In this document: positions 2,876 to 58,640 of the stretch, one piece after another
Position numbering within the stretch: the first letter of the stretch is position 1
How the letters are laid out: each line of letters begins with the position of its first letter
NCBI RefSeq assembly: GCF_030915465.1
Contig: NZ_CP133267.1
Span: forward strand, 186,001 to 250,000
Source of the DNA: Neobacillus sp. PS3-34
GTDB taxonomy: Bacteria > Bacillota > Bacilli > Bacillales > Cytobacillaceae
DNA length: 64,000 nucleotides
Direction of reading: 5' to 3'
Made by a program: the position numbers and the translations under genes
The notes under the pieces: generated by a model
The model's input: only the letters and a program-made list of their open reading frames with translations
Databases searched by the model: none
Told to the model about the DNA's origin: nothing

Positions 2876-4320
2876 CTATTTCCTGGCTGGATGGACCTTT
2901 AATAGCTTACCCTTTATGGTCGTATTTCTCATGGCTTGCAGCACAATCGGCCTTTGCCGTTTAGAATATCCACATAAGAAACACTGTCCTCTATTTTGAT
3001 GATCCCTATGTCCTCAGCTGTCACCCCATTGATTTTTGCAATGGTCCCGACGAAATCGACTGCTCTGATTTTCTTTTTCTTGCCGCCATTAAAGTACAGC
3101 TTCATAATGTGCTTATTTATTTCTGCGCTTTTTTCTCTTTTAAACTCAGGCTCTGTGTCCATTTTATCAAAAAAAGCTGCTTCGTTTCTGGAAACCTCAT
3201 CCTTAGTCGGCGGTTCCTTTTGTTTGATGTTAAAACCTATGAAGTCTTCAATTTCGGTCAGGAACTTATCTTCATATGGAGTGACAAAGGTGATGGCCTT
3301 TCCTGTTTTTCCGGCGCGTCCTGTTCTGCCGGTACGATGTACATAGCTCTCTTTTTCCATTGGCAGGTCATAGTTGATAACGAGTGAGATATTTTCAATA
3401 TCAATTCCGCGCGCCGCAACGTCTGTAGCAACTAAATAACGGAATTCTCCCCTTTTGAATTCATTCATCACATCAAAACGGTCTTCCTGAATCATGCCGC
3501 CATGAATTTTATCACACGTATAATCCAGTGCGTCCAGTTGTCGAAAAACGTTATCGACCCCTTCTTTAGTCCGGCAAAAAATAATACAGCTATCCGGATT
3601 TTCCATAATGGTAATATCACGGAGCAAATCAAATTTTTCTTCATCTCTTACAACATAAAGAGAATGGTCGATTTTGCCTGTTGTCTGACTCTCCGCTTGA
3701 ATTTCAATAGTAATAGGATTGTTCATATAACTGCGGCTTAGATTCTCGATATCCTCAGGCATTGTAGCTGAAAAAAGCATCGTTGTTCTATCTTTTGGAA
3801 GCTCGTGGATAATTGCTTCGACTTGTTCAATGAACCCCATATTAAGCATTTCATCCGCCTCATCGATCACAAGATACTGTATACGCTCCAACGATAGCGT
3901 TCCTTTTTCAATATGATCCAGCACCCGTCCGGGAGTTCCGACAACGACATGCGTTTTCTGCTTTAGCTCCTGCTTCTGTCTTTCAAAAGGAGATTTTCCA
4001 TAAACGGCAGCCGCTTTAATTCGTTTAAATCTCCCAATATTGGTGATATCCTCTTTAACCTGCACGGCAAGCTCGCGGGTAGGCGCAAGGATTAAAGCCT
4101 GCGGCTTGTTTTCTTCCCATTGTACTAGTTCGCAAATGGGTATTCCAAAGGAAGCCGTTTTGCCGCTCCCCGTTTGTGATTTTACAACTAGATCCTTCTT
4201 TTCCAGGGCGACTGGAATGACCTCGGCCTGGACTTGTGTAGGATTTTCATAATTCAAGCCGGCTAAAGACCTAATAATTTCTTCGCTCAATTGATAATCT
4301 GTAAAGCTTATTTTACTCAT
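2876..4320 (-). CDS. dbpA: DEAD-box RNA helicase DbpA/YxiN, C-terminal frameshift
   Basis: This is an ATP-dependent RNA helicase of the DbpA/YxiN type, which acts on 23S rRNA hairpin 92 during 50S assembly. Visible motifs are the Q motif near residue 28, SQTGSGKT (48-55), PTREL (80-84), DEAD (about 153), SAT (about 183) and HRTGRTGR (about 328), followed by the RNA-binding domain with [19 protein letters not shown]. As written the frame stops at 2929 after [11 protein letters not shown]. One added C in the GGCC at 2949-2952 restores [19 protein letters not shown] and a stop at 2876, the usual family ending. The defect removes about 22 residues of the rRNA-specificity domain. Helicase identity is certain; the frameshift is probably a sequence error. 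Confidence 0.92.
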
Positions 4321-4348
4321 GCAGCAACCTCATTTTGTGTTATATGTA

Positions 4349-4969
4349 TTAGTTACTCTCTTCTGCTTGTTCAGCAAGGTTGAAGACGAACCGGTAAATT
4401 AGCAGGAATGCATCTCCCAAGGTCATATTCTCATCGAAGCCTTCCACATTGTTCAGAGCAAAATTTAAATTCCATAAGCCGTCTTCATTGTTGAATAGCA
4501 AATCAAATTTTGTATCATCGCCCTGTAATTTGTCATTCAGAAGAGCCTTCAGGGTCTTGTCGTATTTCTTTTGGATCTTCAGTCCAAGCATAACATCATA
4601 TGTACCAAATACATCATCAACCTCGAAAGAAAAAGCATCCACACCGATTATTTCAAACCAGTCAGACTCCATGTAAATAAATTCATGCAAATGCTTCTTT
4701 AAATAATCGATCGGCTGGTTTAAAAATTCAAAGGATTCTTCTCCCAAAAACTTCTCCAGCTCTTTATCTGAACGCTCAATATAAGCTGAACCAAAGCGTG
4801 TAACAGGGGTTAGCTCATTCACCCGAATCCTCGGCTTAAATTCCTCGTTTATCAGCTGGTGCCTCTCAGCGTAATCAAATTCTTCTTTATAAACCTCAAT
4901 CTTCCCATCTGCGCCCGGCTGCATCTCCTTCAAGTCTGCAAAATACTGAGTAATTTGTTTTTTTAACAT
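4349..4969 (-). CDS. conserved hypothetical protein
   Basis: This 206-residue soluble acidic protein starts at an ATG with a strong AAAGGAGG site. It has no signal peptide or membrane segment. Features are the RIRVNELTPVTRFGSAYIERSD stretch in the first half and alternating helices and strands later. Similar Bacillus proteins are, as I recall, sometimes labelled branched-chain aminotransferase, but no pyridoxal-phosphate lysine motif or aminotransferase fold is visible, so that label is not supported. It lies 28 bp upstream of dbpA on the same strand. No function can be assigned. Confidence 0.55.
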   Translation of the reverse strand: MLKKQITQYFADLKEMQPGADGKIEVYKEEFDYAERHQLINEEFKPRIRVNELTPVTRFGSAYIERSDKELEKFLGEESFEFLNQPIDYLKKHLHEFIYMESDWFEIIGVDAFSFEVDDVFGTYDVMLGLKIQKKYDKTLKALLNDKLQGDDTKFDLLFNNEDGLWNLNFALNNVEGFDENMTLGDAFLLIYRFVFNLAEQAEESN

Positions 4970-5064
4970 CTATATATCCTCCTTTAAACATTACCAATAT
5001 CGATTGAACATCTATACCAGTATACACTAGTCGGCATATGCCAGGCACGCCACGAATTTCTTTC

Positions 5065-5112
5065 GGGTGACAGGCACTTTCCAGATTAAGCCAGGTGACA
5101 GGCACCTTCCAG
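5065..5112. repeat. GTGACAGGCAC dispersed repeat, two direct copies
   Basis: GGGTGACAGGCACTTTCCAG (5065-5084) and AGGTGACAGGCACCTTCCAG (5093-5112) lie side by side, and a diverged GCCAGGCACGCC lies just upstream. The same word forms an inverted pair at 23002-23043. Confidence 0.8.
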
Positions 5113-5123
5113 AAAATATCCAT

Positions 5124-5154
5124 AAAAAAAAGACAGACCTCTATATCAGTCTGC
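5124..5154 (-). terminator. intrinsic terminator of the SRPBCC gene
   Basis: On the minus strand CAGAC and GTCTG pair around a 10-nt loop and are followed by eight T residues, 50 bp after the stop at 5206. Confidence 0.6.
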
Positions 5155-5205
5155 CCATTTCTTAATATGTAAATGTGTTAATTCATCCATAAATTTCTTA
5201 GTTTT

Positions 5206-5661
5206 TTACAACCTCGTCGGCTTCAATTCCATCAGTTTGGCAGAAATGGCGGCTGTCATTTCTTCTCCCTTTTTCGGTACAGAGGTTTTTAAAACAGCGT
5301 TTATAATGCCAGCCAATGGCCCTTCTGCAGTCATTTCCAGGTATCCGGACATTTTTGTTTTATTTTTATCAAGAGCTTCTGCCAAAAAATAACCCTTGCC
5401 TGTCATGTTTTCGTTAATACCCTTCAAATCAAAGGTTACCTTTGTCGGCTCAATCCATTCCTTAATCGTGATCAGCATGGTGACTTTCTTTTTTAGAATT
5501 CCTACGTCTTCGCGGAACGTCCATTGGGATTGGCGTTCATTTACTTTCTCATGGCTGATATATCCTGGGACTAGGGGTGCCCAATTGTCCATTTCCTTTA
5601 CAAAATCCCAAATCACCGCGATTGGCTGATTGATGATTACTTCATTTTTTGCACTTGTCAT
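5206..5661 (-). CDS. SRPBCC / CoxG-like protein
   Basis: This 151-residue protein has the SRPBCC (START-like) pattern: an N-terminal strand with NQPIAVIWDFVKEMDNWAPL, a beta-grip middle and a long C-terminal helix (AAISAKLMELK). The EMDNWAPLVPGY segment resembles the CoxG branch, which is linked to carbon monoxide dehydrogenase maturation in some bacteria, but no cox genes are nearby. It more likely binds a hydrophobic ligand or lipid. An AAGGGAGGAAGC ribosome site precedes the ATG, and a terminator follows. Confidence 0.7.
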   Translation of the reverse strand: MTSAKNEVIINQPIAVIWDFVKEMDNWAPLVPGYISHEKVNERQSQWTFREDVGILKKKVTMLITIKEWIEPTKVTFDLKGINENMTGKGYFLAEALDKNKTKMSGYLEMTAEGPLAGIINAVLKTSVPKKGEEMTAAISAKLMELKPTRL

Positions 5662-5773
5662 GCTGCTTCCTCCCTTTTATCCAATCTAAAAAGACCTCCT
5701 GGTTCCGAAGATCTTTTTAGAAAAATATATGTGCATTTTGATTTTTTAGAAGGAAGCAATTTTTAAATCAACA

Positions 5774-9167: not shown

Positions 9168-9315
9168 ATTAACCCACTCCTTTAAATTCAAATTCATCGC
9201 TTATTATTCGTCTTTTTAGCGTTTTTCACTCTTTATCTTTTTTATCCTGCAATATTTCACTTTACATCGATCTTCACAAAGGCTATGATGAAACCAATTA
9301 CATATTTAATTTTTA

Positions 9316-9409
9316 CTACTAGGGGTGCCCTGCGAGCGGGCTGAGAGAAAAACGTCCAGTTTTTTAACCCTTTGGACCTGATCTGGATTATGCCAGCGTA
9401 GGAAAGTAG
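9316..9409 (+). promoter_or_regulatory. TPP riboswitch (THI element)
   Basis: The conserved blocks are in order: GGGGTGCC, GGGCTGAGAG, ACCCTTTGGACCTGATCTGG and TATGCCAGCGTAGGAAAG, closed by CTACT (9316-9320) and AGTAG (9405-9409). It lies upstream of thiW, with a strong terminator at 9443-9481, so thiamine pyrophosphate is expected to stop transcription before thiW. Confidence 0.97.
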
Positions 9410-9442
9410 AGAAGAAGAGTCTTCCTTTCTTTTATTTACTTT

Positions 9443-10101: not shown

Positions 10102-10373
10102 TTAAAGATGATAATCAAATTGCCCTTCTGATATTTGGACAAAATGGCCCAATATTCCTAGATGAGTGATTCCATGCTCGGTTGCCACAACGGGGGTATA
10201 AAGAGAAAAAAAGAGGAAATTAATTTTTTCAAGGCCACAGGAAGATCTGTTTTTGGCAGCTTACCATACTCCTTTTCGAAAAATGAAACAAAATCTTTTT
10301 TAGAAGGATTCGTAAAGGCAAGCAAACCTAATAGAACAATAAAAACAATTACACCCCAATTCCTCTTGAGCAC
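10102..10373 (-). pseudogene. small membrane protein, possibly DUF4359, frameshifted
   Basis: A GTG start preceded by GGGAGGGG gives MLKRNWGVIVFIVLLGLLAFTNPSKKDFVSFF, a single membrane anchor followed by a soluble part, resembling DUF4359 proteins. As written the frame ends at 10158 with an unlikely tail. Adding one base to the seven-A run at 10206-10212 gives SLYTPVVATEHGITHLGILGHFVQISEGQFDYHL and a stop at 10102, a coherent ending of about 90 residues. The indel lies in a homopolymer, so a sequence error is likely. It sits 13 bp after the lipoprotein gene on the same strand. The family name is tentative. Confidence 0.55.
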
Positions 10374-11640: not shown

Positions 11641-11672
11641 AAAAAAACAGGCCCAATTAAGAGCCTGTTTTA
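11641..11672 (-). terminator. intrinsic terminator of csp
   Basis: On the minus strand AAACAGGC, an 11-nt loop and GCCTGTTT are followed by TTTTT, 14 bp past the stop. Confidence 0.85.
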
Positions 11673-11685
11673 ATAGTAGCTTATA

Positions 11686-11885
11686 TTAAGCTTTACGAAC
11701 GTTAGCAGCTTGTGGTCCACGAGCTCCTTGCTCAACGTCGAAAGAAACTTCTTGGCCTTCTTCAAGTGACTTGAAGCCTTCGCTTTGGATAGCTGAGAAG
11801 TGTACGAATACGTCGTCTCCACCTTCGCGCTCGATGAATCCAAAACCTTTTTCTGCATTAAACCATTTTACTTTACCTTGTTCCA
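11686..11885 (-). CDS. cold-shock protein (CspA/B family)
   Basis: This 66-residue single cold-shock domain protein has RNP1 KGFGFIE (about residues 13-19) and RNP2 DVFVHF (about residues 25-30). It is an abundant RNA chaperone that melts structure in mRNA at low temperature. The start is the ATG after GAGGAGGAAACAC. A leader of about 100 nt contains the inverted repeat TGTGTGCAAAGCACACG just before the ribosome site, a possible cold-responsive structure. The closest names are CspB, CspC or CspD, which cannot be separated from sequence alone. Confidence 0.95.
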
Positions 11886-12049
11886 TTTGTGTTTCCTCCT
11901 CGTGTGCTTTGCACACATTGTGTTACTATCCTTGCTTAAATCTTCAAGTCAGAAAGCATTAACACTAACCCTTGCCGAACAAACAAAAATAATTCTTCTT
12001 AAGAATAGCAGATGAAAATTCATATTGCAAGAGCAGATTAAATTTTAAT

Positions 12050-15512: not shown

Positions 15513-16150
15513 TCAAAATAGTTCTGATAATGCTTCTTTTATCGGCTTTTCTCCTGACGATACAGCAAATGTCCTATTATACGCTGCTTCGTTTTGGATT
15601 GATTCTACAAGGACAGCTGCTGCATCCACACGGGAAATTTCACTTGTGCTTTCCATATCCAGACCCCCTGCAGATATCGTTCCCAGGCTGGCTTATCCAC
15701 TAAGGTTGCGGGACGCACAATCGTAAACACAATGTCCGATTTTCTTAAAAGCTCATCTGGCATATCCTTTGCTCCAATCCCAGCTGTGGTGCTTGAATTG
15801 TCCATATGTTCCTCAGCCTTGACGGCACTTAGCATCACAAAACGTCTAATACCCTGCCGTTCCGCTGCCTGAACAGTATTGATCACGGCTGAGTGGTCAA
15901 CCAGTACGGTTTTATCTGTATGCGATTTGGGGCTTACATCCGACAAATAAATCACCGCTTCAGCTCCCATGAACAAGGAATCAATCGAATTTTCATCATA
16001 AATCATTACCTCATCCGCACCGCGATCCCTTACACCTTCAATCTGATTTTCGTTTCCCACTACAGCCAGAGATTGATAGTTTTGCAGTCTCAATTCCTGA
16101 ATCACATGCTCGCCCACACCTCCATGAGCGCCAATAACCACAACTTTCAT
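15513..16150 (-). pseudogene. NAD(P)-binding SDR (atypical, YhfK-like), frameshifted
   Basis: The N-terminus VVIGAHGGVGEHVIQEL carries the GxxGxxG nucleotide-binding loop, followed by the VRDRGADEVMIYD and FVMLSAVKAEE strands of the NmrA/YhfK-type atypical short-chain dehydrogenase family. As written the frame degenerates after IVRPATLVDKP and stops at 15605. One extra base near 15681-15692 restores LGTISAGGLDMESTSEISR and the conserved VDAAAVLVESI, with a stop at 15513, for about 212 residues. It is the upstream partner of the YerD-like gene, 13 bp apart. The substrate is unknown; it may be a redox sensor or reductase. Confidence 0.75.
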
Positions 16151-17414: not shown

Positions 17415-18358
17415 ATGGAATATCGCCGTTTAGGAAAAACAGGATTAAAGGTAAGTGAAATTTCTCTTGGAAGCTGGCTTACATACGGGGGATACGTTGA
17501 GGAACAAAATGCGACTGCCTCGATTGATAAAGCCTTTGACCTGGGCATTAATTTTATTGATACAGCGAACGTATACATCCGCGGTGAAGCTGAAGTGGTT
17601 GTCGGTAAGGCTCTCCAGAAATATGCACGTGATTCATATGTACTTGCTACAAAGGTGTTTTGGCCGATGGGTGATGGCCGAATGACCGCTGCATTTCCCG
17701 CAAGCATGTGATTGAACAATGTAACGCCAGCCTGAAACGTCTTGGCACTGATTATGTTGATCTTTATTACTGCCACCGTTTCGATCCTGAAACCCCGCTG
17801 GATGAAACATTAAGAGCATTAGATGATCTTGTCCGACAAGGTAAAGTCCTTTATGTTGGGGTTAGTGAATGGACTGCCGAACAAATCTCGGAAGCTGTTC
17901 ATCTAGCTGATAAAAAACTCCTCGACCGCATTGTTGTCAACCAGCCGCACTACAGCATGCTGCACCGTTATATTGAAAAAGAAGTGATTCCGGTCAGCGA
18001 AAAGCACGGAATTGGGCAGGTTGTCTTCTCTCCGCTTGCACAGGGAGTATTGACAGGAAAATATCAAAAAGGTGCTGAGGCTCCTGCGGGCAGTCGTGCA
18101 ACACAGAAAAACCTTGGTTCACTATTTGGACTGCTGACGGATGAAAATCTGGACAGAGTTGAGAATTTAAAAGTAATAGCTGCTGATCATACTCTAAGTC
18201 TTGCCCAGCTTGCGCTCGCATGGATTCTTCGCCAAAGCAATGTGGCCAGTGCAATCGTTGGTGCAAGCCGTCCTGAACAGCTTGAAGAAAACGTCAAGGC
18301 ATCAGGCGTCAAGCTTCCGCAGGAAACAATTGATCGAATTGAAGAAGTATTAAGATGA
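17415..18358 (+). pseudogene. aldo/keto reductase (potassium-channel beta-like), frameshifted
   Basis: This NADPH-dependent oxidoreductase has an (alpha/beta)8 barrel. The first part (17415-17700) has MEYRRLGKTGLKVSEISLGS, DLGINFIDTANVY (catalytic Asp and Tyr) and YVLATKVFWPM. The second part (to 18358) has DYVDLYYCHRFDPETPLDET, FSPLAQGVLTGKY and AIVGASRPEQLEENVKA. They join in one protein of about 315 residues if one C is added to the GGCC at 17676-17679, giving MGDGPNDRCISRKHVIEQC. All catalytic residues are kept, so a sequence error is the better explanation. The closest relatives are YqkF/KCNAB-type reductases. A terminator follows. Confidence 0.88.
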
Positions 18359-23047: not shown

Positions 23048-25809
23048 TCAGCCTGTGTTCCTTAGTCCGGCAGCTATGCCGCTTATGGTTAGAAGGACTT
23101 GTGTTAATAACTCATCGTCTGGCTGTTCTGATTTCCGAAGTTCTTTAATCAGTTCAACCTGGATAAAGTTTAATGGGTCAACGTATGGATTTCTGCGATA
23201 GACGGAATCCTGGATGTTCGGTGTATGATCAAGCAGTTCATCGTCTTTTGTTATTTTTAAGAGTACGTCTTTCGTGCGGTTATATTCATCGACAATATTG
23301 TTAAAAATTCGTTCAGCTATCCCTTTATCATCAACCAACGCAGAGTATTCCCTCGCTGTTGTAATGTCTGCTTTCATTAATGCCATTTGCAGATTATCGA
23401 TGGTCGAACGGAAAAATGGCCATTGTTCATACATTTGCTGCAACAGCCGCAAATTACCCTCACTCTTGGATGCAAAACCCTCTAAGCCAGTTCCTGCTGC
23501 ATACCAGGCTGGGAACAACTGGCGGCTTTGTGTCCATGCGAACACCCATGGTATCGCCCTGAGATTTTCAAATTTATTGCTGTTTTTCCGGCTCATCGGG
23601 CGGGAGCCAATGTTCAGCTCTGCCAATTCTCTTAACGGTGTAGCTTGATTGAAATACGTTAGGAAATCCGGATCTGCAAAAACGAGTGACTGATATTTTA
23701 TCAAAGAAAGATCAGAAATTTCTTCGATCGCTTTTACCCACTCTTCTTCACGAATACGACCCTGCTCGGATTCCTTCGAAACCCGGGCTGCAGCAAGCAT
23801 AAGGGTAGATGTTGCCTGTTCAAGGCTTCGATAAGCGATATCCTCCAGAAGGTAACGTGATGAGAGCACCTCGCCCTGCTCGGTAATTTTCACGCCGTCA
23901 CCAAGCGTTTCTGCAGGCTGAGATAATAGGCTCCTGTGCAAAGTACCGCCACCACGGCCAAGGGAACCGCCACGGCCGTGGAAAAATTTCAGGCTTATGT
24001 CATACTTCTTTGACATCTCATGAATTTCAAGCTGGGCTTTGTATAATTTCCAGTTCGCCGTCAATGTACCACCATCCTTGCTGCCGTCTGAATAGCCAAG
24101 CATGATTTCCTGGTGGTCACCCAATTTGCGTAATTGATTGCGGTAAACCGGCATCTGGAAAAGGGTCTCCATAATTTTAGGCGTGCAGTCAGATCATCAA
24201 TGGTTTCAAGCAAAGGAGCCACATTTAAGTCACTTTCGACCGTCCCATTGGCATGAAGACGGTAAATACCCGCTTCTTTTGCCAGTAAAAGAACCTCCAG
24301 TAGGTCGCTTGCAGATTGAGTCATACTGATCAGATAAACTGAAATCGACCTTTTTCCAAATTCCTTATGGGCGTTTTTGATTAATTGGAATACCTCGATT
24401 ATTTGCCGTGTTTCATCTGAATAATCTTCATTCTGAAGCAAAAGAGGCCTAGGGTTTTCCAACAAGCTTTGCAATAAAGAGACCTTTTCATTTTCTGCTA
24501 GCGATTCATAATTTTCGGAAATCCGCACTTTACGGAGAATTTCTGCGATAGCTGCCTCATGTTCGCCACTATGATTGCGTATGTCTAGGGTGGCAAGATG
24601 GAACCCGAATAATTTTACCTGACGAATCAGTTTATGAAGCATCTTCAATTCATAGCCTGCGGGGTGGTGACCGAGAATGCTCCTTTGAATCATTAATAAA
24701 TCAGCCAATAGCTCATCTGAATTGTGATAGCCTATCTCAGATTTCCCCACTTGTTTAAGACGTTCTATCATAACTGCGATTTTTCGGCGGTATACCTCTG
24801 CTTCAATAGTCCAGCGTTTATCTTCAGATAAATACAGCTCCTCATCCAAACGAACAGATTCCTGCAGTTCATCACTAACCGCAGCTCTTGTTGTGGAGTG
24901 GCTGAAGCGCTTCATCAATTCAACAAGGACCGTTTTATATTTTTTAAGCACCAGCCTGCGCTGCCTGTTTAATGTCTCCCATGTGACCTCAGGTGTAACA
25001 TTAGGATTTCCATCCCTGTCTCCACCGATCCACGATCCAAAGCGAAGAAATTGCGGAACACTCCACTCTTTTTCAGGGTAATGGGCTTTCAGGCTTTCCT
25101 CCACTTCCTGGTGGATATCAGGCAGTACGTCAAATAGTGTTTGATCGAAATAATATAATCCGTTCCGGACTTCATCAATTACGGTTGGCTTATTGTGACG
25201 CAGCTCATCTGTCTGCCATAAAACGGTTACTTCATTAAAAAGGCTCTCCTCTACCTTCTTACGTTCTTTGCTGGATAACAAAGGATTGTCCAGGCTTTTC
25301 AAAATGGTGGCAATTCGTTTTTGGATTTCAAGAATCGACCGCTTGGTAGCTTCGGTCGGGTGCGCTGTAATGATAAGTTCCAGCGATAGCCTGTTAATTA
25401 CATCATCAATAATTTCTGTCGAAATATGATTTTCCTTTAATGAAAGAATGGCACTTTCGATAGAACCAGGCTGGACGTTAATATCCGATTGCAGCTGATA
25501 TTCGCGGCGCCTGCGAATGCGGTGGTTTTGTTCCGCGACATTGATCAAATGAAAGTATGCTGAAAAAGCTCGGGTAACCTGTGTGCGTATTTTCGGATCG
25601 AGTGAGGAAATTTCTTGTTTTAATATGTTATACGTTTCTTTATCATTCTGATTCCGAACCGTTTTGCACATTGCCCGGATCTTTTCAACTTTTTCAAATA
25701 ATTCTGTGCCGCCGTGATAAACAAGAATTTCCCCAAGGATATTACCTAGCATTTTCACATCCCTGCGGAGCGGCTGACTGCTGTCATTTCCAGTTAATGC
25801 CGTTTTCAT
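23048..25809 (-). pseudogene. ppc: phosphoenolpyruvate carboxylase, frameshifted
   Basis: This anaplerotic enzyme converts phosphoenolpyruvate plus bicarbonate to oxaloacetate. The start is the ATG after AAGGGTGAAAGG. The first part (to about 24180) contains the catalytic His region TAHPTEATKRS (148-158) and FGSWIGGDRDGNPNVTP. The second part (from 24172) has MLGYSDGSKDGG, FHGRGGSLGRGGG and the C-terminal RNTG ending of the family. One base near 24178-24192 is missing; adding G to give GCACGGCCT joins them into about 919 residues. All active-site motifs are present. B. subtilis itself lacks ppc and uses pyruvate carboxylase. Confidence 0.93.
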
Positions 25810-26077: not shown

Positions 26078-26930
26078 ATGAAAGAAGAACTTAAATATAT
26101 CGGAAATAAAATTGTTGAAAATCACGTGAAATTAGCTGAAAAGCTTGAGGATATGATAGACCCCTTCTATATGCGCGACTTGAGGAACTCTGGTATGCTC
26201 CTAAACGAGTTAAGAGAATACAGAGCCGAATTAATTCGCTGCTTTGGGGAGGCCTTTTCAAAGATACAGATGTTGTAATGAAAGAAGTCATCAAATGGGG
26301 GAAAAAGCAGCCAGCTTTGCCATCCGCTATAACATTTCTTTAAGCGGGGCATTAAGAGCAGTGTCATCCTATCGAAATGTCATTTGGGAAGCCTTTACAG
26401 AAGAACTCGAACAACGACAATTTGCAGCTATTACCATGCTGAATGTGTCAAAAAAGGTCGATCCTTTATTAGATAAAGTCTGTAATGTTATTGGTGAAAT
26501 GTATGAAAAGCATAACGAAGAATTAATGAAGGACGCCTATAATGCCCTTGAAGAGCTATCTGTTCCTGTTGTTCCTCTTGCAGAGGGAATCGCAATTATC
26601 CCGATTGTAGGCGATATCGATACTCATCGGGCGAAATTAATTATGGAAATTTCACTAAATGCCGCTGCTGACTTGAATCTGGAGGATATCATTTTTGATG
26701 TTTCCGCCGTTCCGATTATTGATACGATGGTGGCCAACCAACTATTTAAAATAGTGAACGCTCTCCAACTTACAGGAGTTGAAACCATCTTAACGGGAAT
26801 TCGACCGGAAATCGCACAAACCATTGTGAATCTTGGCGTTAATTTTGGGGAAATAAAAACCCGTGCCAGTATGCAGCAAGCTTTAAAGGAATTGGGATTT
26901 AAAAAAATAGAAGATGACGTGAAAAAGTAG
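26078..26930 (+). pseudogene. RsbR-like stressosome protein, frameshifted
   Basis: The first 60 residues (from 26078) and the rest (from about 26250) are in different frames. One C added to GGCC at 26251-26254 joins them as GEALFKDTDVVMKEVIKWGKK, giving about 284 residues with a helical sensor and a STAS domain. Unlike the other two STAS proteins here, both RsbT-target threonines are kept (GDIDTHRAK and PIIDTMVAN), as in canonical RsbRA-like proteins. A terminator hairpin follows. It is therefore the best candidate for a fully phosphorylatable stressosome subunit. Confidence 0.82.
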
Positions 26931-29787: not shown

Positions 29788-30158
29788 TTATGCACGGCTG
29801 AAACTCCTGCTCTTCATCCGCTCTTTTAAGGTAGAAATGGCAAAGGAGCTTCCCAGCCATAATACCAGCCTGAAAAAATGCTTAACACCCAGTTTCCGCT
29901 CACCTGCAAAACCAAAAGAACGGAAGTAACACAAATGATGCCGCCAATCATTCCGTAAACAGATCCGTTGGCAATATTTGCAGCCTTTTTAGAACCAGAA
30001 GAAATCCCCATCATTAATACCGCTGTGAGCATAACAGCTGGGAATGCGGCGAATATTCCGCCGAGTATTTTCCACGGGGAGATGATTGTGACAATATAAC
30101 TCAGCATAACTGCTGTACCCCCAAGCAGGAATCTGATCAATAAATCTTGTTTTTTCAT
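29788..30158 (-). pseudogene. DUF3147-type membrane protein, frameshifted
   Basis: The N-terminus (KKQDLLIRFLLGGTAVMLSYIV) and GGIFAAFPAVMLTAVLMMGI are typical of DUF3147. As written the frame ends at 29826 with a poor tail. Adding one base to the A6 run at 29873-29878 gives FFRLVLWLGSSFAIS and a stop at 29788, for about 122 residues with four helices. It is the downstream member of a tandem pair with 30177-30536, to which it is clearly related (GGIFAAFPAV in both). A paired heteromeric small membrane complex is plausible. Confidence 0.65.
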
Positions 30159-30536: not shown

Positions 30537-30680
30537 TTTCATTCGCCTCTCTCTAAAATTCTCTACCAATTTTTCATTGTGTATGTGATTATTTTCACAA
30601 TATCCTCCGCATTTCTATTTTACTGCAAAATAGCTGTAATCCCTGTGAACATTTTATTACTATTTTTGAAGCGCTTACAG

Positions 30681-32960: not shown

Positions 32961-35770
32961 TTAGTTAGTAGAAGGATTTGAAAGCCAGACTCTCAAAACA
33001 CTGAGTAGCTGATCCAGTTTTAGCGGCTTGCTGATATAATCAGACGCTCCGGCTTCCAGACATTTTTCGCGGTCACCCTTCATGGCTTTCGCCGTCAGGG
33101 CAACTATCGGTAAAGAATCATATTTCTGATTTGACCTTATTCTTCTCATTGTTTCATATCCATCCATACCAGGCATCATGATATCCATCAGAACAATATC
33201 GATATCTTCAGTAGCTTTAAGTGTTTCCAGACATTCCAGGCCATTTTGGGCTGTGACGATATCCATGCCTTCATGGGCAAGTGCGTTCTTCAATGCAAAA
33301 ATATTTCGATTGTCATCATCGACGACTAATACTTTCTTATTGCGCAGGAGATTCAATGGAAGATCTTCAGAAATCAGCACTTCATTTTCCGCAATGATTT
33401 CAATGGAATCTGCCACGAACTCATTCTCATCCTGGCCAAGCCCGCCAGCAACTTCCTCCGTTGCAATCACGGTAGCTTCTTGTTTGACAAGTCCGGAGGG
33501 CAGGCTTGGCAAATAAAGCGTGAATACACTTCCTTTTCCTTCTTCACTTTCTACTGTAATACTTCCTCCCAGTAAGCCTGCAAATTCCTTACAAATAGAA
33601 AGCCCTAAACCTGTTCCGCCATATTTTCTCATCGTTGCACCATCCACCTGCTGGAAGGCGTCAAATATGAGAGTTTGTTTATCCTTTGGAATTCCGATAC
33701 CTGAATCAGTAACCTTAATTTCCAGCCAGTCAGAGTCTGTATAACGAAGGTTTTCATTCGCGATCTTTTCGCTGGAAGGTACGCCAATACTCACTGATAC
33801 ATTGCCGTTTTCAGTAAATTTAAACGCATTGGAAAGCAAATTTTTCATTATTTGCTGAAAACGCTGTTCATCTGTGTAGAAAATTCCTGGTGCGTTTTCA
33901 TCCTTTAGGATAGAAAATTCAATGCCTTTATTTTTGGCAATATGAGAAAAGTTTCTTTCCAATATTCCCGGCAGCTCACTAAGGTTCATTTCACCAAAGA
34001 CCATGTCGAGCTTGCCGACTTCCACCTTCGATAAATCAAGAATATCATTTATCAGTGACAGCAGATCTTGTCCCGAGCTGTTGATAACACGCGCAAATTC
34101 CTGCTGCTCTTCTGATAGCGATTCTTCATTGCTATCAGATAGCATCTCTGAAAGGATTAAAATGCTGTTTAACGGTGTTCTAAGCTCATGGGACATATTC
34201 GCAAGGAACTCGGATTTATATCTTGAACTCAATTTTAGCTGCTCGGCTTGTTTCTCAAGATTCACCTTAACTTTTTCAAGTTCTCTTGTTTTCTGCTCCG
34301 CTTCCAGATTTCTTTCTCCCAATTGTTCGTTTATCATGCGGAGCTCTTCTGATTGGGATTGCATCTCTTCTGCCTGTGCAATTCCTCAGATTGTGTTTGA
34401 AGCTCCTCTGATTGCATTTGCAGTTCTTCGGTTTGTGCCTGGGATTCTTTTAATAAGCGTTCAATTTCCATTCTTCCCTTAACACTGTTTATTGTGAGGC
34501 CAAGTGTATCAAGTGCCTGCACGAGGAACTTTCTTTTTACCTCCTGGATGTTTTCCAGGCTGGCCAGTTCAACCATCGCCACTACTTCGTCCTCGAAAAG
34601 CACAGGAACAATCATAATGCTTTTCGGAAATACCTCGCCAAGACCGGATGTTATAAAGGTATAGCCTTCAGGGATTTCTTCAAGAATATGGGCACGTTTC
34701 TCCAACGCTGCCTGGCCTATTAAACCTTCACCAGGCAAAAATTCCATTCTGCCCGCATTTTGCCCCTCGCCGGCAAACGATGCCAGCTTTCGATAACGTG
34801 CATTTTTCCCTTCACCCACTCTTGCATAAAAAACGGCATAAGAAGCGTCCATCATCGGTGCAAGTTTTGACAAAAACCTTGCTGCCAGCATATCAAGGTC
34901 TTCAATTCGCTGGTACATGGTAGCCATTTCCGCCAAACCAGTCTGTACCCAATTTTGCTCTTCTATTTTTGAAGTGAATTCCTTTTCCTTACGACTGGAC
35001 TCTTCCAATGAGTAGGCCATCTCATTAAACGCAACAGCAATGTCTCCAATTTCATCTTTTGTTCCTACAGTGATTCTCGGAAGCGTACTCATGTCGGTGA
35101 AATCGATCGTCTTCATGACATCGGAAATATTTTTAAGATTATTTGTCGTGCTTTTAATGACCCAATAAGCAACCATCGCTGTTGCAGCCAGTGCTAATAA
35201 AGCGCCAAGTATTAGCGTATACAGACCCTTTTGATATGTACTTTTTGCCGATTTTAAGGTGGACTTCATCAATGATTCCTGATAAGCCTTAAAATCGTTC
35301 ATATTTCTTATAACCAAGGTACGATTAACTTTCTGTTCGGTTAAAAGCGGTTGAATCTCATTTAATTTGCCATCTCTTACTTTCTCTGTGATTTTATTTT
35401 CAATATTAATATACGCTTTGTAATTTTCTTCAATTTCATTTAAATAGATATATGATTGTTTATGATTAAGAATGCCAGAGAGTGTGTACAGGTCCTTTTG
35501 AATAAGGTCATGATTTTGCTTCAATTGTTCCAGGCTGTCATTTACTTGTGTTTTATCCTTCTCGTAAACACTATTAAGCAATTCACGGTCAGACTGGAAA
35601 AATAATTGCCTCATTTCCGTAACGAGATTGACCTTATAATACCGGTCCTCCACAATTTCCAGCATATTGTTTTTCATATTATTAATCATAAAAAATATAC
35701 CTGTTATCAAAACGATCATTAATAATAAAATGATGCCGAAACCCGTTAATTGCTTTTTCTTAAAGCTCAT
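32961..35770 (-). pseudogene. rsbK: hybrid sensor histidine kinase, RsbK-like, frameshifted
   Basis: The start is the ATG after GAAGGAAGAG. The first part has a membrane helix (about residues 9-30), an extracytoplasmic helical sensor of the CHASE3/4HB kind, a second helix (about 190-212), HAMP, a GAF domain (about 285-440) and a heptad coiled coil. The second part has HisKA (FLANMSHELRTPLNS, phospho-His), the ATPase boxes (LSNAFKFTENG, DSGIGIP, KYGGTGLGLSI) and a receiver (VLVVDDDNRN, LMDIMMPGMDGYE, TAKAMKG, SKP). The break near 34371-34385 falls in the coiled coil; the frame shifts by one. It is 25 bp upstream of rsbM, as in the B. cereus RsbK-RsbM system. The total would be about 935 residues. 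Confidence 0.85.
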
Positions 35771-39400: not shown

Positions 39401-41508
39401 ATGGAAAAATTAAAGCCAATACGCGATGCCATTATTCGATTTTGGAAGAGAAGGCATCTCACTCAAATATTACTGCTGCTATTACTTACGGTTATTTTAT
39501 TGACGATTCTTTATTTTACGTGGCTGGCGAGCAGGACAAATGTCCAGTCACTTAAGGAGGGCTTAGGTCAATCCACAGTTATATATGATAAGGATGGCGA
39601 AACCGCCAGCGAACTGCAGCCGAACCGTTTAAAGGGGGTTTCGCTCAGTGACGTTCCCAAATATGTGCCGAATGCGGTTGTATCCATTGAGGATGAACGA
39701 TTCTACCAGCATCATGGATTTGATATTAAGGGCATTGCCCGGGCCTTTTTGGCAATATTTTTGCCGGCAGGGTTACAGGCGGCGGTAGTACGCTAACACA
39801 GCAGCTGACTAAAAACGCCCTCCTCTCTCCACAGCGGACGTATAAACGGAAGGCAGAGGAGCTCTTCCTTGCCGTTAAAATCGAAAAGGTATATTCAAAA
39901 GAAGAAATTTTACAAATGTATTTAAACCAGGTGTATTTCGGAAGCGGAGCCTGGGGTATCGGGCAGGCATCCCAAAAGTATTTTGCAAAAAATATTAAGG
40001 ATGTATCAATCAGTGAAGCAGCCCTTCTGGCAGGCCTTGTCCAGGCACCTACCGCGCTTGATCCCTACAACTATTACGACCGGGCAATTAAACGGCGCAA
40101 CGTAGTTTTAGGAAAAATGAAAGAACTAGGTTATATTACTGCTTCACAGTATAAGGAAGCGAAACACGAAAAGATCCGCCTGCGTGACGGCGGCGGAACA
40201 AGAGCAGAAAGGCATTATCCATATTATGTGGACGCGGTGCTTGATGAGGCCATTTCACGCTACGGCTTGACACAGGAGGAAATCTTCACACGTGGTTACC
40301 GTATCTATACTGAAATGGACCAGAACCTCCAGTCAGGACTTGAAAAGGTTTATAAAAAGAATTGGATATTCCCGCATGGTCCGAATGGGTCACTGGTACA
40401 AAGCGGATCAGTTTTAATGGACCCTGCATCCGGAGGCGTCCGCGCTTTGGTGGGCGGTCGTGGTGAGCATGTTTTCAGAGGTTTTAACAGGGCAACGCAT
40501 CTGAAGGCACAGCCTGGTTCGACGATGAAGCCGCTTGCCGTTTACACACCTGCACTTGAGGAAGGCTATGACGCTACCTCCGATCTTGTCGACAAGCCGA
40601 TTTCTTTTGGAAATTATAAACCTGAAAATTTCTCAAGAACGACCCAGGGCGAGGTTCCCATGTATGAAGCAGTGGAAAAGTCCTTGAACATCCCTGCGGT
40701 CTGGCTGCTTAATAAAATTGGAATTGATAAAGGACTCGAATCTCTTAAGAAATTTGGTATACCTGTTGAAAAAGAAGACCGAAACCTTGCGATTGCATTG
40801 GGCGGTATGCATACCGGCATCTCCCCTCTTCAATTGGCTGATGCATTCACCACCTTCCCGAACGGCGGAGAACGCAACGACAGCCACTTAATTACAAAGA
40901 TTGTCGGCCCGACTGGAGATACGATTGCCGAACATGAGCAGGAAACAACAAAGGTAACCTCGAAAGCAGTGGCAAATGAAATGACATCAATGCTTTTGAA
41001 TGTTGTGGAGAGCGGTACCGGTAGAAGGGCTCATATTAAAGGCTATGAGATAGCGGGTAAAACAGGGTCCACTCAGCTTCCATATACGGATATCAATGGA
41101 ACGAAGGATCAGTGGATGGTCGGCTATACCCCAAATCTGGTCGGAGCCATCTGGATTGGTTTTGACCAAACTGACCGTGAGCATTACCTGCCGAATAACA
41201 GTTCAGGAAATGTCGTTCCTATATTCAGGGCCATCATGGAGGAATCATTACCAAATTTGAAAAAGGAACATTTTGAAGTGGATTCTGTGAATACCCAGTT
41301 AGCCAATAAAGGGAAAACCACAGAAGAAGCAAAAAAAGCCATTCGCGAACAAGCGGAAAAATTAAGAAAAGAATTTAATGATAATGCCAGAGTAATCGGC
41401 AAAAAGCTGAAGGAAGAAGCTCCAAAATGGAAAAAGGACTTAAATAAAGGCATGCAGGACCTCGGAAAAACGATCGACGGTGTCGTAAAGAAAATACGAG
41501 GGCAGTAA
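39401..41508 (+). pseudogene. class A penicillin-binding protein (PbpF-like), frameshifted
   Basis: This bifunctional peptidoglycan synthase has a short cytoplasmic tail, a membrane helix (about residues 22-43), glycosyltransferase motifs (VVSIEDERFYQHHGFD with catalytic Glu, then GGGSTLTQQLTKN and LNQVYFGSGAWGI) and a transpeptidase with QPGSTMKPLAVY (active Ser), SLNIPA and AGKTGST. The break is in GGGCC-TTTTT at 39741-39750: adding one base (GGGCCC) restores ALFGNIFAGRVTGGG. Without repair the glycosyltransferase is cut in half. The C-terminal tail is lysine-rich and helical. About 703 residues, resembling B. subtilis PbpF. Confidence 0.9.
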
Positions 41509-42072: not shown

Positions 42073-43547
42073 TTATGCAATATTCTCAGTAGTATCTCTT
42101 TTAACAGCAACAGACTTTGTTGCGAGGCTGACACCAAAAGTGACTACTACATTAATGATTAAAGCGATTACCCCTACATTCAGATCCTTAACGGATTGTG
42201 GCAATGAAGGAAATAAAACACCGATAGTCGTCTGATTAATGGTAATATATGCAACTGTTAGTACACCGGCCAAGATACCTGCAAACGCTCCGTATTTCGT
42301 AACGATATTGTTTTTGAATAAACTTGAAACAAGTGCCGGAAACAGCTGCGTCACGAGACTATATCCCATTAGTAGCAGTGTTACGATTGTGTTACCTCCC
42401 TGGAATGTGAAAAATAAGGCAGCAAGAGCAACAACTGGAACGAGGTTCTTTGCGAGCCTAGAAACCTGTTGGTCCGTTGATTTTGGAACAAATACTTTAT
42501 AAATATTCTTTGCCATCAGCGTTGCGGCAGCCATTAGAATCATGGAACCTGGGACAATCGCAGTTAACAGCCCAGCTGCACCGATCAGGCCAACAAGCCA
42601 TGGATCAAAGGTCTGAATAGATAAGCGCAATAATGCAAGGTCACCAGCCGGACCTTCCAGCCCTTTTACTTGTAAAATCGCGGCGAACCCTACAAAGAAA
42701 ACAAACAGCAGTACGAGCTGGTACAATGGCATAATTATCGTATTTTTTCGGAAGACCTTTGCATTCTGTGCGGAATAAATTGAGCCGAATGTATGAGGCG
42801 ACATATAAAATCCAAGTGCAGTCAACAGCACGGTTGAAACGAACCATGAAACACTAATGCCGCTGTCCGGCAGTGTAACGAAGCCCGGCTTTGCCTGGTC
42901 AATCGCTTCAAACATTGGCTGAAATCCTCCATAGTAATGGAATGGAAGGTAAATACCAAGAAACAGCACAATACCTAAAATCATAATGTCTTTTATAACG
43001 GCAGTCCAGGCAGAGCCGTGGATGCCTGAAATCATCACATAAACAGTAACTGAAATGGCACCAATCCATACCGCTACGGATGGAGAAATTGTTCCATAGG
43101 AAGCCTCGGAAACAATAATGCCCAAGCCCTTCAATTGCAGGACAAGATAGGGAATCAATGCAATTACACCTACTACAGAAACTAAAACACCAAGATAAGG
43201 GCTTTTATATTTGCTGACAAAAAAATCTGATTGTGACAGTAATTTGTTTTCTTTTGAATACTTCCAAATAGCGGGAAGCAGCCAGTAGGACATTATATAG
43301 GCTAGACAGCCGTAAGCAAGGATGTAAAAGGTAGGCCGCCTTTTCCATAAGCCCATCCGCTTCCCCCCAGGAAAGTGAAAGTCGTATAAATTTCTCCAGC
43401 CATCAGTAGGAATACAAAAATGGTTCCAAATCCGCTGCTGCCGACAGTCCATTGTTCAAGGTCCATGTCTTTGCCTTTTCTTGCACGAATTCCAAGGAAA
43501 ATCGATAATATTAAAAATCCGAAAATGATTAAAAGTGCTGAATTCAT
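42073..43547 (-). pseudogene. sodium:solute symporter (SSS family), frameshifted
   Basis: This Na+-coupled transporter has about 12-13 helices. The N-terminal part (from 43547) reads LIIFGFLILSIFLGIRARKGKD, with GEIYTTFTFLGGSGWAYGKGG. The rest (from about 43335) contains YIMSYWLLPAIWKYSKENKLLSQSDFF and GSAWTAVIKDIMILG, typical of the SSS core. One C added to GGCC at 43334-43337 gives GGPTFYILAYG and joins them in about 490 residues. A DUF3311 gene overlaps its start by four bases, the common SSS partner. Two amidohydrolases follow upstream, so an amino-acid derivative is a likely substrate. Confidence 0.87.
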
Positions 43548-48326: not shown

Positions 48327-49157
48327 ACGATATCGTAAAAATGATGCCTGCAATTGTAATAAAACAAGCTGCCAGCTTTGCCATCGTGATTTTCTCCTTA
48401 AAATAAATCCAGGCAAGAAAAATAGCAAAGAGTGGTGATGTGTATGCCAGTGAAACAACAAGAGTTCCATCCGCAAATTTTAGTGCGGTAAAAAGGCAGA
48501 GCCATTGAATGATGACGGTAATTCCCCTCATTCCCTGATGGAAATGCAGCTTTGGAAACCAAATCTTGGCCGGTATAGGATATAGGTAATGATGGCAATT
48601 CCACAAGACCGGAAAAAATATAGTGTGACAGGATTCGCCCAACCATGAAGCAGGATTTGCTGGGTCGGAACCATACTTACACCATAAACAACGGCCGTGG
48701 CAATCCCCAACAAATTTCCAGGCTTCCGCAATTCCATAAATGGTGTCAGCGGGTTTCTTCCTTTTAAATTTAAAAAATACACCCCAGTTACAATAAATAA
48801 AACAGAAAACAATACGAGTGGATGAAAACCATAAATGATTGAATTAGGGATAAAGGTAAACAGCGGCGTTAAAGCAAGATAAACAGCGAGCACTGACACC
48901 TCAATTCTTTCCATCGCCTTAAAGAATAGTACGTTTGCCAGTGTATCCAAAAGGATGACAAGCACTACCAAACTGATGGATGCCAATGAGACATGAAAAG
49001 AGAATAGCCAAGGAAGAGTGAGCCCAAGGAAAATAGCTATGTAAATAAAAGAAGTAACAATGAAACTATTATTATCCTTCATTTCGGTCACAATTTTTTT
49101 GGCATAAAGTGCGTTAACTGCATTAAAGAATGAACTGATCAGTGATAAAACAAGCAT
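48325..49157 (-). pseudogene. EamA/DMT-family transporter, frameshifted
   Basis: This ten-helix drug/metabolite transporter of about 277 residues has two EamA repeats. The first part (MLVLSLISSFFNAVNALYAKK to FRSCGIAIITYILYRP) and the second (KIWFPKLHF to FLAWIYFKEKITMAKL) are in different frames. One C added to GGCC at 48568-48571 gives LYRPKIWFPK and joins them. The two EamA motifs are intact. The start is the ATG preceded by GAGGCGG; an ATG seven codons earlier is possible. Substrate unknown; such proteins export or import metabolites. Confidence 0.82.
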
Positions 49158-49343: not shown

Positions 49344-50071
49344 TTAATATGTGGTCCGCCTTCTGGCAAAGTCGACAAAGCGGAACTTATCCGGCCTATG
49401 CCTTGATTCAGTGTACTGAAACAGTGACGCATCCTCGAGATGCACCTGGCTGCGGATCACGACGACATTATGGAAGCCTTCGATATCAAGGTAAAGACGG
49501 TCCTCTTCTGTTGGCTCTTCGATCAGGATTTCTTTTTTTGCAAAGCTTATTTGCAGGCCAAGCGTATTTTCAATATATGAATAGATCGAATCCTCGCAAA
49601 CTTCCTTGGTCAGCTGGGGCACGATGTTTTTTACGAGATAATCTTTATCAAGGATTACCTTTTCACCGCCGATTTCCCTTGTCCGGACCACCTTCCAAAC
49701 CAAGTCCTTGGCATGGAGGTTCAATTGTGAGGTTAACATTCTGTCTGGTTCCATCAATGAAAGCTCGTGGACTGTCGTTTTTGAGTCCCTGCCATTTTTT
49801 CAGCAAGTTCTTTAAAACTGACGAGACCTGAAACAGGCAAATTCATTTTGGTAATATCGATGACGACAGAGCCTTTGCCTCTTACCTTTTGAATATAGCC
49901 ATTTTGCGAGAGAAGATTTAAAGCCTTGCGAATCGTTTCCCTCGATGTTTGAAAAATATCCTTTAAGTCATGTTCAGATGGAAGAAGAGTCGAAGGCGCA
50001 AAATCCCCCGACTCAATTTTTTCGACCATTTGGTTGTATATCGTAATATATTTATTCGTCACGGCAGCCAC
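49344..50071 (-). pseudogene. treR: GntR-family trehalose repressor TreR, frameshifted
   Basis: This repressor of the tre operon binds TTGTATATACAA-type boxes unless trehalose-6-phosphate is present. The N-terminal GntR winged helix reads YITIYNQMVEKIESGDFAPSTLLPSEHDL and SRETIRKALNLLSQNGYI. The C-terminal effector domain has VWKVVRTREIGGEKVILDKDYL, VPQLTKEVCEDSIYSYIE and FQYTESRHRPDKFRFVDFARR, all close to B. subtilis TreR. The parts are joined by one extra base near 49785-49794 (giving KMGRDSKTTVHEL or KMARDSK). A GTG start, with a second GTG three codons later, is likely. It overlaps the end of treA. Confidence 0.9.
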
Positions 50072-50083: not shown

Positions 50084-51777
<1,694 letters not shown>

Positions 51778-54947: not shown

Positions 54948-55002
54948 TTTATTAAAATAACCATTAAGTGTAATCGTAAACATCCATTTCGTAATTACAT
55001 AT

Positions 55003-55335: not shown

Positions 55336-55596
55336 GTAAACCTCCTATCTTGTTTTTAGTCTACCTTCATTATGTCATATTTTGTATAGAAAAACGAAAG
55401 TCATGCTTGCCCAAAATGTTTTTGTGAAAGAACATTTCAAATAATTTTGTCAAGAAAAAAGACTTCATTTTCCATTGTAACTACTTAAAAGGATGAAATA
55501 TCCTTACTAAATTTGTCACATTTATATTCAAGATTTCATGTTATCATCATACACGTAGTGTTAACCTCGATTGTTGGTCCACTAATCCGATTTCGA

Positions 55597-55614
55597 TTGT
55601 GAACACTTTCACAA
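55597..55614 (+). promoter_or_regulatory. Rex operator upstream of qoxA
   Basis: TTGTGAACACTTTCACAA is an 18-bp perfect-armed inverted repeat matching the Rex consensus TTGTGAWWWWWTTCACAA. It lies 51 bp before the qoxA start. A weaker similar repeat (TTTGTGAAAGAACATTTCAAA) begins at 55421. Confidence 0.8.
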
Positions 55615-55664
55615 CTATTTTAGAATAATCATATAATTCTTTATTTTTGAGAGGAGCTGAAGGA

Positions 55665-56675
55665 ATGAAATCGAAGAAAGGATTTTGGATTTCGTTCATG
55701 GCGCTGGTACCTATGCTATTGTTGAGCGGCTGTGATACAAATATGGTCGTTTTCGAGCCTCAGGGACCTGCCGCAAGAGAAATTCTTGGTTTAATTAACT
55801 GGTCGCTTGTTTTAATGGCGCTAGTTGTTGTCGTTGTATTCGGCCTTTTTGGTTACATTGTCTGGAAATACCGGGAAAGACCAGAAAACAAGGACTATGA
55901 GCCGCCAGAAGAACATGGCAGCACTGCACTTGAAATTATTTGGACTGTTATCCCTATTATCATCGTTATTGCACTGACTATTCCTACCGTCAAATCGATT
56001 TATAATCTTGAAAAAGTGCCTAAGGGCTACGAAAATAAAAAACCAATTACGATTAATGTTACCTCTGCAGACTGGAAATGGATTTTCAGCTACCCTGAAC
56101 AAGGAATTGAAACAGTCAATTATGTTAACATTCCTGCAGGCACCCCTGTTAAGTTCAAGCTGACATCTGCCGGAACGATGCAATCCTTCTGGGTTCCTGC
56201 CTTAGGCGGACAGAAATACACGATGAGTAAAATGGAAACACAACTTTATCTGGTTGCTGACAAACCAGGCTCATACTTAGGAAGAAATACAAACTTTAAC
56301 GGTAAGGGCTATGCCGATATGGAGTTTGAAGTAGAATCAAAATCTCCTCAAGCCTTTGAAAAATGGGTTAAAGATGTGAAGAGAACGGCTCCTAAGCTGA
56401 CAGAAAAGAAATACATTAACTTGCTTAAACCAACACATCTTGGAAGATTGACATTTAACGGCGATCATCTTGTCTGGATTAATCATGCAGATATGAACTC
56501 CAAGACTTATACATTCCCTGAAATGTACAAAGTGCATGGATACCAGGGACATATTTTCAAATATAAAGAAAAAGACCAAAGCCATGATTCAATGAAGATG
56601 GACGATTCCATGAAGATGGATGATTCTATGAATATGGATGGCAATAAAGATGGAGGTGGGCACGATGGGCATTAA
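55665..56675 (+). CDS. qoxA: cytochrome aa3-600 menaquinol oxidase subunit II
   Basis: This 336-residue lipoprotein begins with a signal peptide and lipobox LLLSGC (Cys near residue 23), followed by two membrane helices (about residues 42-66 and 88-110) and a periplasmic cupredoxin-like domain. The CuA ligand pattern C-x3-C of cytochrome c oxidases is absent ([18 protein letters not shown] at that place), so it is a quinol oxidase. The end is a Met/His-rich tail with three [12 protein letters not shown] repeats and GGGHDGH. The ATG follows GAGAGGAGCTGAAGGA. First gene of qoxABCD with a Rex box upstream. Confidence 0.93.
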
Positions 56676-58640
56676 ATGGAATGAAATTTTAATTGGCGGT
56701 GACCCGTTAATCATCGGTTCACAAATCGCCATTTCCCTTACAATGCTCGGAATTGTCGCAGGGTTATCCTATTTCAAAAAATGGACCTGGCTGTGGCGTG
56801 AATGGCTGACAACGGTTGACCATAAGCGAATTGGGATAATGTATATCCTTGCCGGTGTCCTAATGTTTTTCCGTGGCGGCATGGACGGTATCCTCATGAA
56901 GGTGCAGACACTAACACCTGAAGAGAAATTTTTAAATGCACAGCACTATAATGAGATTTTCACCACTCACGGTGTCATCATGATTCTTTTCATGGCAATG
57001 CCATTCCTGATTGGTTTAATGAACGTCGTCATTCCGCTTCAAATTGGTGCACGTGACGTTGCGTTTCCACAGCTGAATGCACTCAGCTTCTGGCTGTTCT
57101 TCGTAGGTGCGATGCTGTTTAATATTTCGTTTGTTATCGGCGGTTCGCCTGATGCGGGCTGGACAGCTTACTTCCCTCTTGCCGGGAAAGAATTCAGCCC
57201 GGGCATCGGAAACAACTATTACGCTGTTGCGATTCAGATTGCCGGTATCGGTACCTTAATGACCGGGATTAACTTTATCGTTACGGTTTTAAAAATGCGC
57301 GCAAAAGGTATGACACTAATGAAAATGCCAATGTTCACTTGGACTTCGTTAATTACATCTGTCATCATCGTTGCGGCATTCCCAATCTTTACGGTAGCAC
57401 TTGCACTGATGACATTTGACCGTATCTTCGGAACGCACTTCTTTACGTTAAGTGGCGGCGGTATGGATATGATGTGGGTAAACTTGTTCTGGCTATGGGG
57501 ACATCCTGAGGTATATATCGTTGTTCTTCCTGCTTTCGGTATGTTCTCAGAGGTTATTGCTACCTTCTCAAGAAAATCACTATTTGGTTATAAGTCAATG
57601 GTCGGTTCCATTGTAGGTATTGCGATTCTTAGTATGCTTGTTTGGGTCCACCATTTCTTTACAATGGGTGCAGGACCGGCAGTCAATTCCATCTTCTCGA
57701 TTACAACAATGATGATTGCGATTCCAACAGGTGTTAAAATGTTTAACTGGCTGTTTACGATGCGTAAAGGACGCATTCAATTTACAACTGCCATGCTTTG
57801 GGCACTTGCCTTTGTACCGAATTTTGTTATCGGTGGTGTTACAGGTGTTATGCTTGCAATGGGCGCAGCTGATTACCAGTACCATAACACTCTTTTCCTA
57901 GTAGCCCACTTCCACTATGTATTGATTCCTGGTGTTGTTTTCGCGGTATTCGCAGGACTTTATTACTGGTGGCCAAAAATGTTGGCCATATGCTGAACGA
58001 GAAAATTGGTAAGATCCATTTCTGGTTCTTTGTGATCGGATTTAACTTAACCTTTATGCCGATGTTCTTCCTTGGCTTAAAAGGTGCGGTTAGACGTTCT
58101 TACACTTATTCAGCTGAATCAGGCTTCTCTCCATTATTCCTGGTTTCTGGAATCGGTGCGTTTATTTTGGCGATCGGCTTCGGTGCCCTTTGCTATAACA
58201 TTTACTGGAGTGCACGATATGCAGAAAGAAATATTGGAAACGATCCTTGGAACGCAAGAACACTTGAGTGGATGACTGCATCGCCAGTTCAGCATTACAA
58301 TTTTGCTAAAATACCAGAGGTTAAATCACTTGATCCTTTCTGGCACATGAAGAAAAATAAAGAAAGCCTTGATTTGAACGAAGATGAACTTGAAGAAATC
58401 CACATGCCTAGCAACTCCGGCCAGCCAATCATAATGGCATCCGTGATAGGTGTTGCCGGCTTCTTCCTTGTTTTCGAATGGAAATTGGCTGCCCTTATTG
58501 CTGCAGTCGGTATTCTAGCTGGATTGATCTACCGCTCATTTGATTATAATGACGGCTACCATGTTCACATCGATGAAATTAAGAAAACAGAAAGCACTTG
58601 GCGTAAAATTAAAAAAGGGGTGAATAATCATGTCGGCTAA
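56665..58640 (+). pseudogene. qoxB: menaquinol oxidase subunit I, frameshifted
   Basis: This catalytic subunit reduces O2 to water and pumps protons. It carries heme a, heme a3 and CuB; the ligands are [19 protein letters not shown] with the Tyr crosslink, WVHHFFTMG and VAHFHYVL. The start is the ATG after GGAGGTGGGCACG, overlapping qoxA by 11 bp. The frame breaks after YYWWPKML at the GGCC at 57984-57987. One G added (GGGCC) gives [19 protein letters not shown], the family sequence, and the protein runs to 58640, about 658 residues. A frame break in an essential oxidase argues for a sequence error. Confidence 0.93.

Follow-up and report, generated by a model that had tools for sequence, protein, structure and literature searches.

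Frame breaks concentrated at GGCC in a Neobacillus genome assembly are very likely consensus errors linked to HaeIII-like methylation

The window studied here is a stretch of 64,000 bases (186001-250000) of the assembly of Neobacillus sp. PS3-34, a single contig of 4,899,526 bases (hereafter G000), in which many genes are interrupted by a change of reading frame. In this report, we found that these frame breaks are mainly one-base losses, that they are concentrated at one short motif, GGCC, across the sampled fifth or so of the genome, and that they strike ribosomal RNA (rRNA) and essential genes. The same genome encodes a cytosine-5 (C5) methyltransferase that, among solved structures, most resembles M.HaeIII. 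The breaks are very likely not mutations, but consensus errors at GGCC that stem from HaeIII-like methylation and its misreading by a long-read basecaller. The assembly is probably an unpolished long-read product, with nanopore the probable platform and GGm5CC the probable modified base.

The sequence read from G000 amounts to 864 kb (the window and another 40 stretches, each 20 kb long), or about one fifth of the genome. Using tblastn, this sequence was compared to open frames of two relatives (G001 and G003) and of some further loci; neighboring matches that differed in frame were gathered, and each break was then placed by frame-aware alignment. G003 is of the same genus, and its matches coincide with those of Neobacillus terrae C11, the nearest named relative found (88% identity, with the window's 467-aa protein as the query). 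By homology, the relatives cover 315 kb of the G000 sample; as a reverse control, 790 kb of G001 and G003 were used, of which 305 kb are covered. Frame changes numbered 108 in the covered part of G000 versus 25 in that of the relatives. Once rows that were broadly placed or low-scoring had been dropped (10 of the 108 and 9 of the 25), 98 and 16 well-placed calls were left, and one-base losses made up 84 of the former and five of the latter. These well-placed losses constitute our main count; 14 well-placed calls in G000 that are of the gain type, eight of them with GGCC, were left out of it.

The association of these losses with GGCC is pronounced. Scored within the break interval and 4 bases, the motif is found at 50 of the 84 losses; when stretches matched in length were drawn at random 1000 times from the covered sequence, it occurred at 1.86 of them on average and at 8 at most. 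The enrichment that the earlier note on this DNA had surmised from the window alone extends beyond it, with GGCC at 45 of 74 losses outside the window and at 5 of 10 inside. GGCC is the sole 4-mer that stands out at the breaks, as the next ones (GCCA, GCCC and CGGC) overlap it, and the weakness is strongest beside GGCCC. If GGC and GCC are admitted along with GGCC, 75 of the 84 losses are accounted for, compared to a random-draw mean of 19.4; four of the other nine are located at runs of at least 5. The losses are spread over 22 of the 41 pieces of G000, the window included, although this spread is not a density map because the relatives' coverage is uneven. In the reverse control, the relatives' 16 well-placed calls comprise five losses, one of them with GGCC, and 11 gains. 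The latter may mirror losses in G000. This control is an imperfect one.

The earlier note had listed 14 genes in the window as each broken by about one base. Eleven of these breaks were recovered, all of them as one-base losses at which the relatives are in frame. The other three (in dbpA, the DUF4359-like gene and the symporter gene) have no usable relative among the compared sequences and are neither confirmed nor refuted. As had been claimed, eight of the 14 sites have GGCC inside the 19 bases around the break. Since only about 2.8% of window positions are as near to the motif, this number is far above chance. On the forward strand, these sites are in the genes for the aldo/keto reductase (17676..17685), an RsbR-like protein (26242..26304), a PBP (39733..39751) and QoxB (57975..57993). 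On the reverse strand, they are in EamA (48559..48577), treA (51072..51090), dbpA (2940..2958) and the symporter gene (43325..43343); for the last two, the adjoining GGCC is the context of a break known from the earlier note. All of the remaining sites are on the reverse strand. Two, in the DUF4359-like (10197..10215) and DUF3147 (29864..29882) genes, adjoin A runs and have no GGCC. The sites in SDR (15676..15694; GGC), ppc (24176..24194; GGCG) and treR (49781..49799; GCC) have GGC or GCC but no GGCC in the surrounding 19 bases, and that in the rsbK-like gene (34366..34385) has none of the three except for a CTGCC-type context.

Nine of the 11 recovered window breaks are in the well-placed set; the RsbR-like break could be located only to a 46-base interval, with GGCC at the position first named for it, and the SDR break scored just below the cut for the main count. 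The same method yielded three further calls in the window, namely two gains (at 30580 and 39346) and a doubtful loss (at 11899). The last is included in the main count, but we distrust it because identity over its first segment is only 44% and a match to the cspA thermoregulator (11641-12010, reverse strand) overlaps it. That match is above the Rfam gathering score, as is one to a TPP riboswitch elsewhere in the window (9311-9421, forward strand).

Errors of this type also occur in sequence that cannot vary. Complete copies of 16S and of 23S number five each in G000, besides partial matches. The five complete 16S copies differ at 10 columns, three of which contain indels; GGCC places account for all three of the indel columns and for five of the 10 variable ones. 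At a conserved GGGCC in 16S, a base is missing from four of the five complete copies and is retained in the fifth copy and in the Rfam consensus. At a second rRNA place, four of six copies are one base short, and the two longer copies agree with the consensus. Elsewhere, one copy has GACC where the other five have GGCC, and at another place two of six copies have CGCC and one has GCGCC. The 23S copies show 29 variable columns, six with indels, and five of these six are at GGCC places. However, variation in 23S includes real differences between operons, and the rRNA argument thus rests on 16S.

Shortened or partial rRNA matches are found at G000:C1:2194966-2196368, 2262506-2263727 and 3271756-3276390. 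They include one 16S of 1403 bases that is partly N, and two loci with fragments of 16S or of 16S and 23S. Operons in decay, masking or faults of the assembly may account for these matches.

Among protein-coding genes, the most telling case is that of initiation factor IF-2, which is essential. In G000, the sole full-length locus for it is divided between two frames, and the break, at about 810.1 kb, is at a GGCC; the gene is unbroken in G003, and in G001 it gives one match, with one TAA noted. Of 30 listed broken genes, 20 could be named from the relatives' proteins. The pyruvate dehydrogenase E1 alpha gene (pdhA) and the genes for PtsI, SpoVD and a Clp ATPase are, like that for IF-2, broken at GGCC; in those for PurL, PNPase and MutL, the listed break has no GGCC. 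Given that the sole IF-2 gene and all but one of the five complete 16S copies are affected, the losses can hardly be biological.

The earlier note had proposed a search for a GGCC-specific cytosine methyltransferase, and a fitting candidate is present. G000 has one match to the C5 methyltransferase family PF00145 (235 bits), at 4.779 Mb; the gene encodes 444 aa (L180 8855-10189). Its best matches among solved structures are two M.HaeIII sequences (PDB 1dct and 3ubt; E values of 4.3e-61 and 1e-59). Residues 136-422 align to 25-318 of 1dct, past the catalytic half to the C-terminus, and the similarity thus extends through the target-recognition part; M.HhaI and other solved enzymes align only with the first part of the protein. 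Homology to M.HaeIII and the error motif together suggest that this enzyme methylates GGCC, forming GGm5CC. A divergently oriented neighbor of 573 aa (L180 7083-8804) matches the PADLOC type II restriction enzyme model PDLC03444 over 1-572 of its 576 positions. This restriction-enzyme homologue has 192 scored relatives, and the named ones among the best 120 are nearly all hypothetical proteins. A search for other methyltransferases in G000, which was not exhaustive, found no match to PF01555 and two to PF02384.

We therefore favor the following explanation. The HaeIII-like enzyme, with the restriction-enzyme homologue adjoining it, would methylate GGCC, and native reads would carry the modified base. 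A basecaller untrained on GGm5CC would shorten or misread the site, especially beside a third C or G. Because the error would recur from read to read, it would survive into the consensus. The suggestion of the earlier note, that a consensus error at a modified GGCC underlies the breaks, is thus supported by the GGCC enrichment, by the rRNA copies, by IF-2 and by a comparison with other carriers of the methyltransferase (see below). Three of the checks proposed in that note, namely the orthologues, the methyltransferase and the indels outside the window, were covered at least partly, and their outcomes are in agreement.

The strongest competing explanation, though an improbable one, is that of a long-read consensus error unrelated to methylation, i.e., a weakness of the basecaller or of low coverage at short G/C runs. 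It would accommodate the nine losses that have neither GGC nor GCC, four of which are in runs of at least 5, as well as the heightened weakness beside GGCCC; Illumina-like genomes would likewise be free of an error that arises at G/C runs. The k-mer composition of the genome bears on this possibility. GGCCC is the most depleted 5-mer of G000 relative to two related genomes, at 0.57 of the Markov expectation versus 0.82 and 0.90 (z of -4.6; the next depleted 5-mer has -2.5 and the most enriched one +3.2). Over 960 kb of G000, its ratio is 0.60, whereas AGCCC, which has an equal run of C, is not depleted (1.06), and among 4-mers at the breaks only GGCC stands out. Moreover, misreading in the rRNA copies, as GACC or CGCC, also affects GGCC that no third C or G adjoins, and a GGCC-type methyltransferase is present in the genome. 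Taken alone, the k-mer evidence is modest. It nevertheless allows an estimate: assuming a natural ratio of 0.86, the expected number of GGCCC is about 460, compared to 322 seen, and therefore roughly 30% of these sites would be one base short.

Another possibility, and a considerably more remote one, is a real mutational bias, in which one-base deletions arise in vivo at a methylated or self-cut GGCC, for example by the faulty repair of restriction breaks. The strong tie of the losses to GGCC would fit such a bias, as would the presence of both a methyltransferase and a restriction-enzyme homologue and the apparently broken state of an adjoining vsr-like gene. Yet a living cell could scarcely have such breaks in four of its five 16S copies and in its sole IF-2 gene. 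Other carriers of the methyltransferase also speak against it. Of the 193 family genomes searched, G000 and ten more carry the gene (E up to 1e-60). For five of these ten, in which the enzyme is 64-84% identical, samples of 14-120 kb per genome gave GGCCC ratios of 0.80, 1.03, 0.85, 0.84 and 0.98, each with a wide error, and the pooled ratio from these small samples is 0.86, versus 0.60 in G000. These five genomes presumably methylate GGCC too, with no pooled depletion of GGCCC. Finally, the ordinary decay of a degenerating strain into pseudogenes would explain a large number of broken genes (about 27 well-placed losses per 100 kb covered), but it is the least credible of all, given that the breaks involve single bases, follow a motif and strike core genes (those for IF-2, PdhA, PtsI, PurL, PNPase and MutL among them), and that both halves of the broken genes are usually well conserved.

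Several observations weigh against methylation-linked consensus error at GGCC. The k-mer comparison singles out no 4-mer (AACT at -3.2 and GGCC at -3.2 are matched by AGTG at +4.0), and there is no standout among 6-mers in the comparison with the two relatives. At some GGCCC-type places in rRNA, none of the copies is altered, from which we conclude that the error depends on context. At 34 of the 84 losses there is no nearby GGCC, and 16 of these 34 have CGCC or GGCG (1.5 expected). This class could consist of GGCC sites that were miscalled or are one base short, as the rRNA copies suggest, or it could reflect a second modified motif. The best PADLOC model for the methyltransferase is DruM rather than a type II methyltransferase, and its pairing with the restriction-enzyme homologue is thus not proven. 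We also tried the DNA of the relatives as a guide to the original bases at the 84 losses, but it gave no clear answer: GGCC is present in the relatives at no more than 11 of the 50 breaks that have it in G000, at 2 of the 16 CGCC/GGCG breaks and at 3 of the 18 others.

The surroundings of the methyltransferase gene deserve comment in their own right. On its other side (L180 11196-17918; about 4.781-4.788 Mb of G000) are genes for a DruE-like helicase (1866 aa; PADLOC DruE4, 1719 bits) and a DruK-like PD-(D/E)XK nuclease of 368 aa. Judging from these sequence matches, the region is perhaps a Druantia-like defence island, and the partner of the methyltransferase could be the restriction enzyme, the Druantia-like system, or both. 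Beyond the restriction-enzyme homologue is the vsr-like gene (L180 6300-6811; about 4.776 Mb). Its open frame matches only positions 37-68 of the 74 in the Vsr model, and a Vsr-like start is visible by eye in a different frame with stops. In the 600 bases inspected, there is no GGCC.

If our explanation of the breaks is correct, its consequences reach beyond this strain. An even spread of losses at the observed density would mean on the order of a thousand breaks in 4.9 Mb, by extrapolation, and an annotation of G000 would list many false pseudogenes, essential genes included, along with altered 16S copies. The pattern at GGCC could also be taken for a mutational bias. It is likely that the consensus errors of a finished assembly act as a fossil methylome, i.e., that indels reveal, without recourse to the reads, which motif was methylated and that its methyltransferase was active at the time of DNA sampling. 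Many single-contig public assemblies could then yield the specificities of uncharacterised methyltransferases, and the joint tests used here (the motif at frame breaks, k-mer depletion, rRNA copies and a matching methyltransferase) can flag similar assemblies.

The arrangement found in G000 has parallels among known systems. The G000 enzyme differs from M.HaeIII in that it is longer, at 444 aa in the reading used, and has an N-terminal extension. R.BsuRI is a protein of about 576 aa, and the BsuRI genes are on one strand. The restriction-enzyme homologue of 573 aa, likewise beside a methyltransferase, can be likened to it in size and neighborhood; the two genes of G000 are divergent. In published excerpts, BsuRI is described as cutting GGCC between its second and third bases (GG/CC; PMC4081073), and M.HaeIII-type enzymes as producing GGm5CC (PMC7559349).

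A GGCC-linked consensus error belongs to a known class and is ordinary in kind. According to excerpts of the respective reports, Dcm sites made up about 70% of the consensus errors in Klebsiella pneumoniae with the then-current nanopore basecallers (PMC6591954), modifications on which basecallers were untrained led to motif-bound errors in Listeria (PMC10687267), and 74.76% of the erroneous indels in Neisseria were at or beside methylated sites (PMC12506013); the available part of another report (PMC12007338) does not mention methylation. As far as these excerpts go, the published methylation-mediated nanopore errors resemble those of G000 in that a strain-specific motif recurs, the error is kept in the consensus and genes are broken or altered. 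The closest precedent lies in two isolates of Pseudomonas aeruginosa, in which nearly all discrepancies were at GGCC (PMC12345217). As excerpted, that case also tempers our explanation, since the changes were mainly substitutions and there was no consistent methylation call (PMC12345217). In contrast to it, G000 shows mainly one-base losses and has an identified HaeIII-like methyltransferase.

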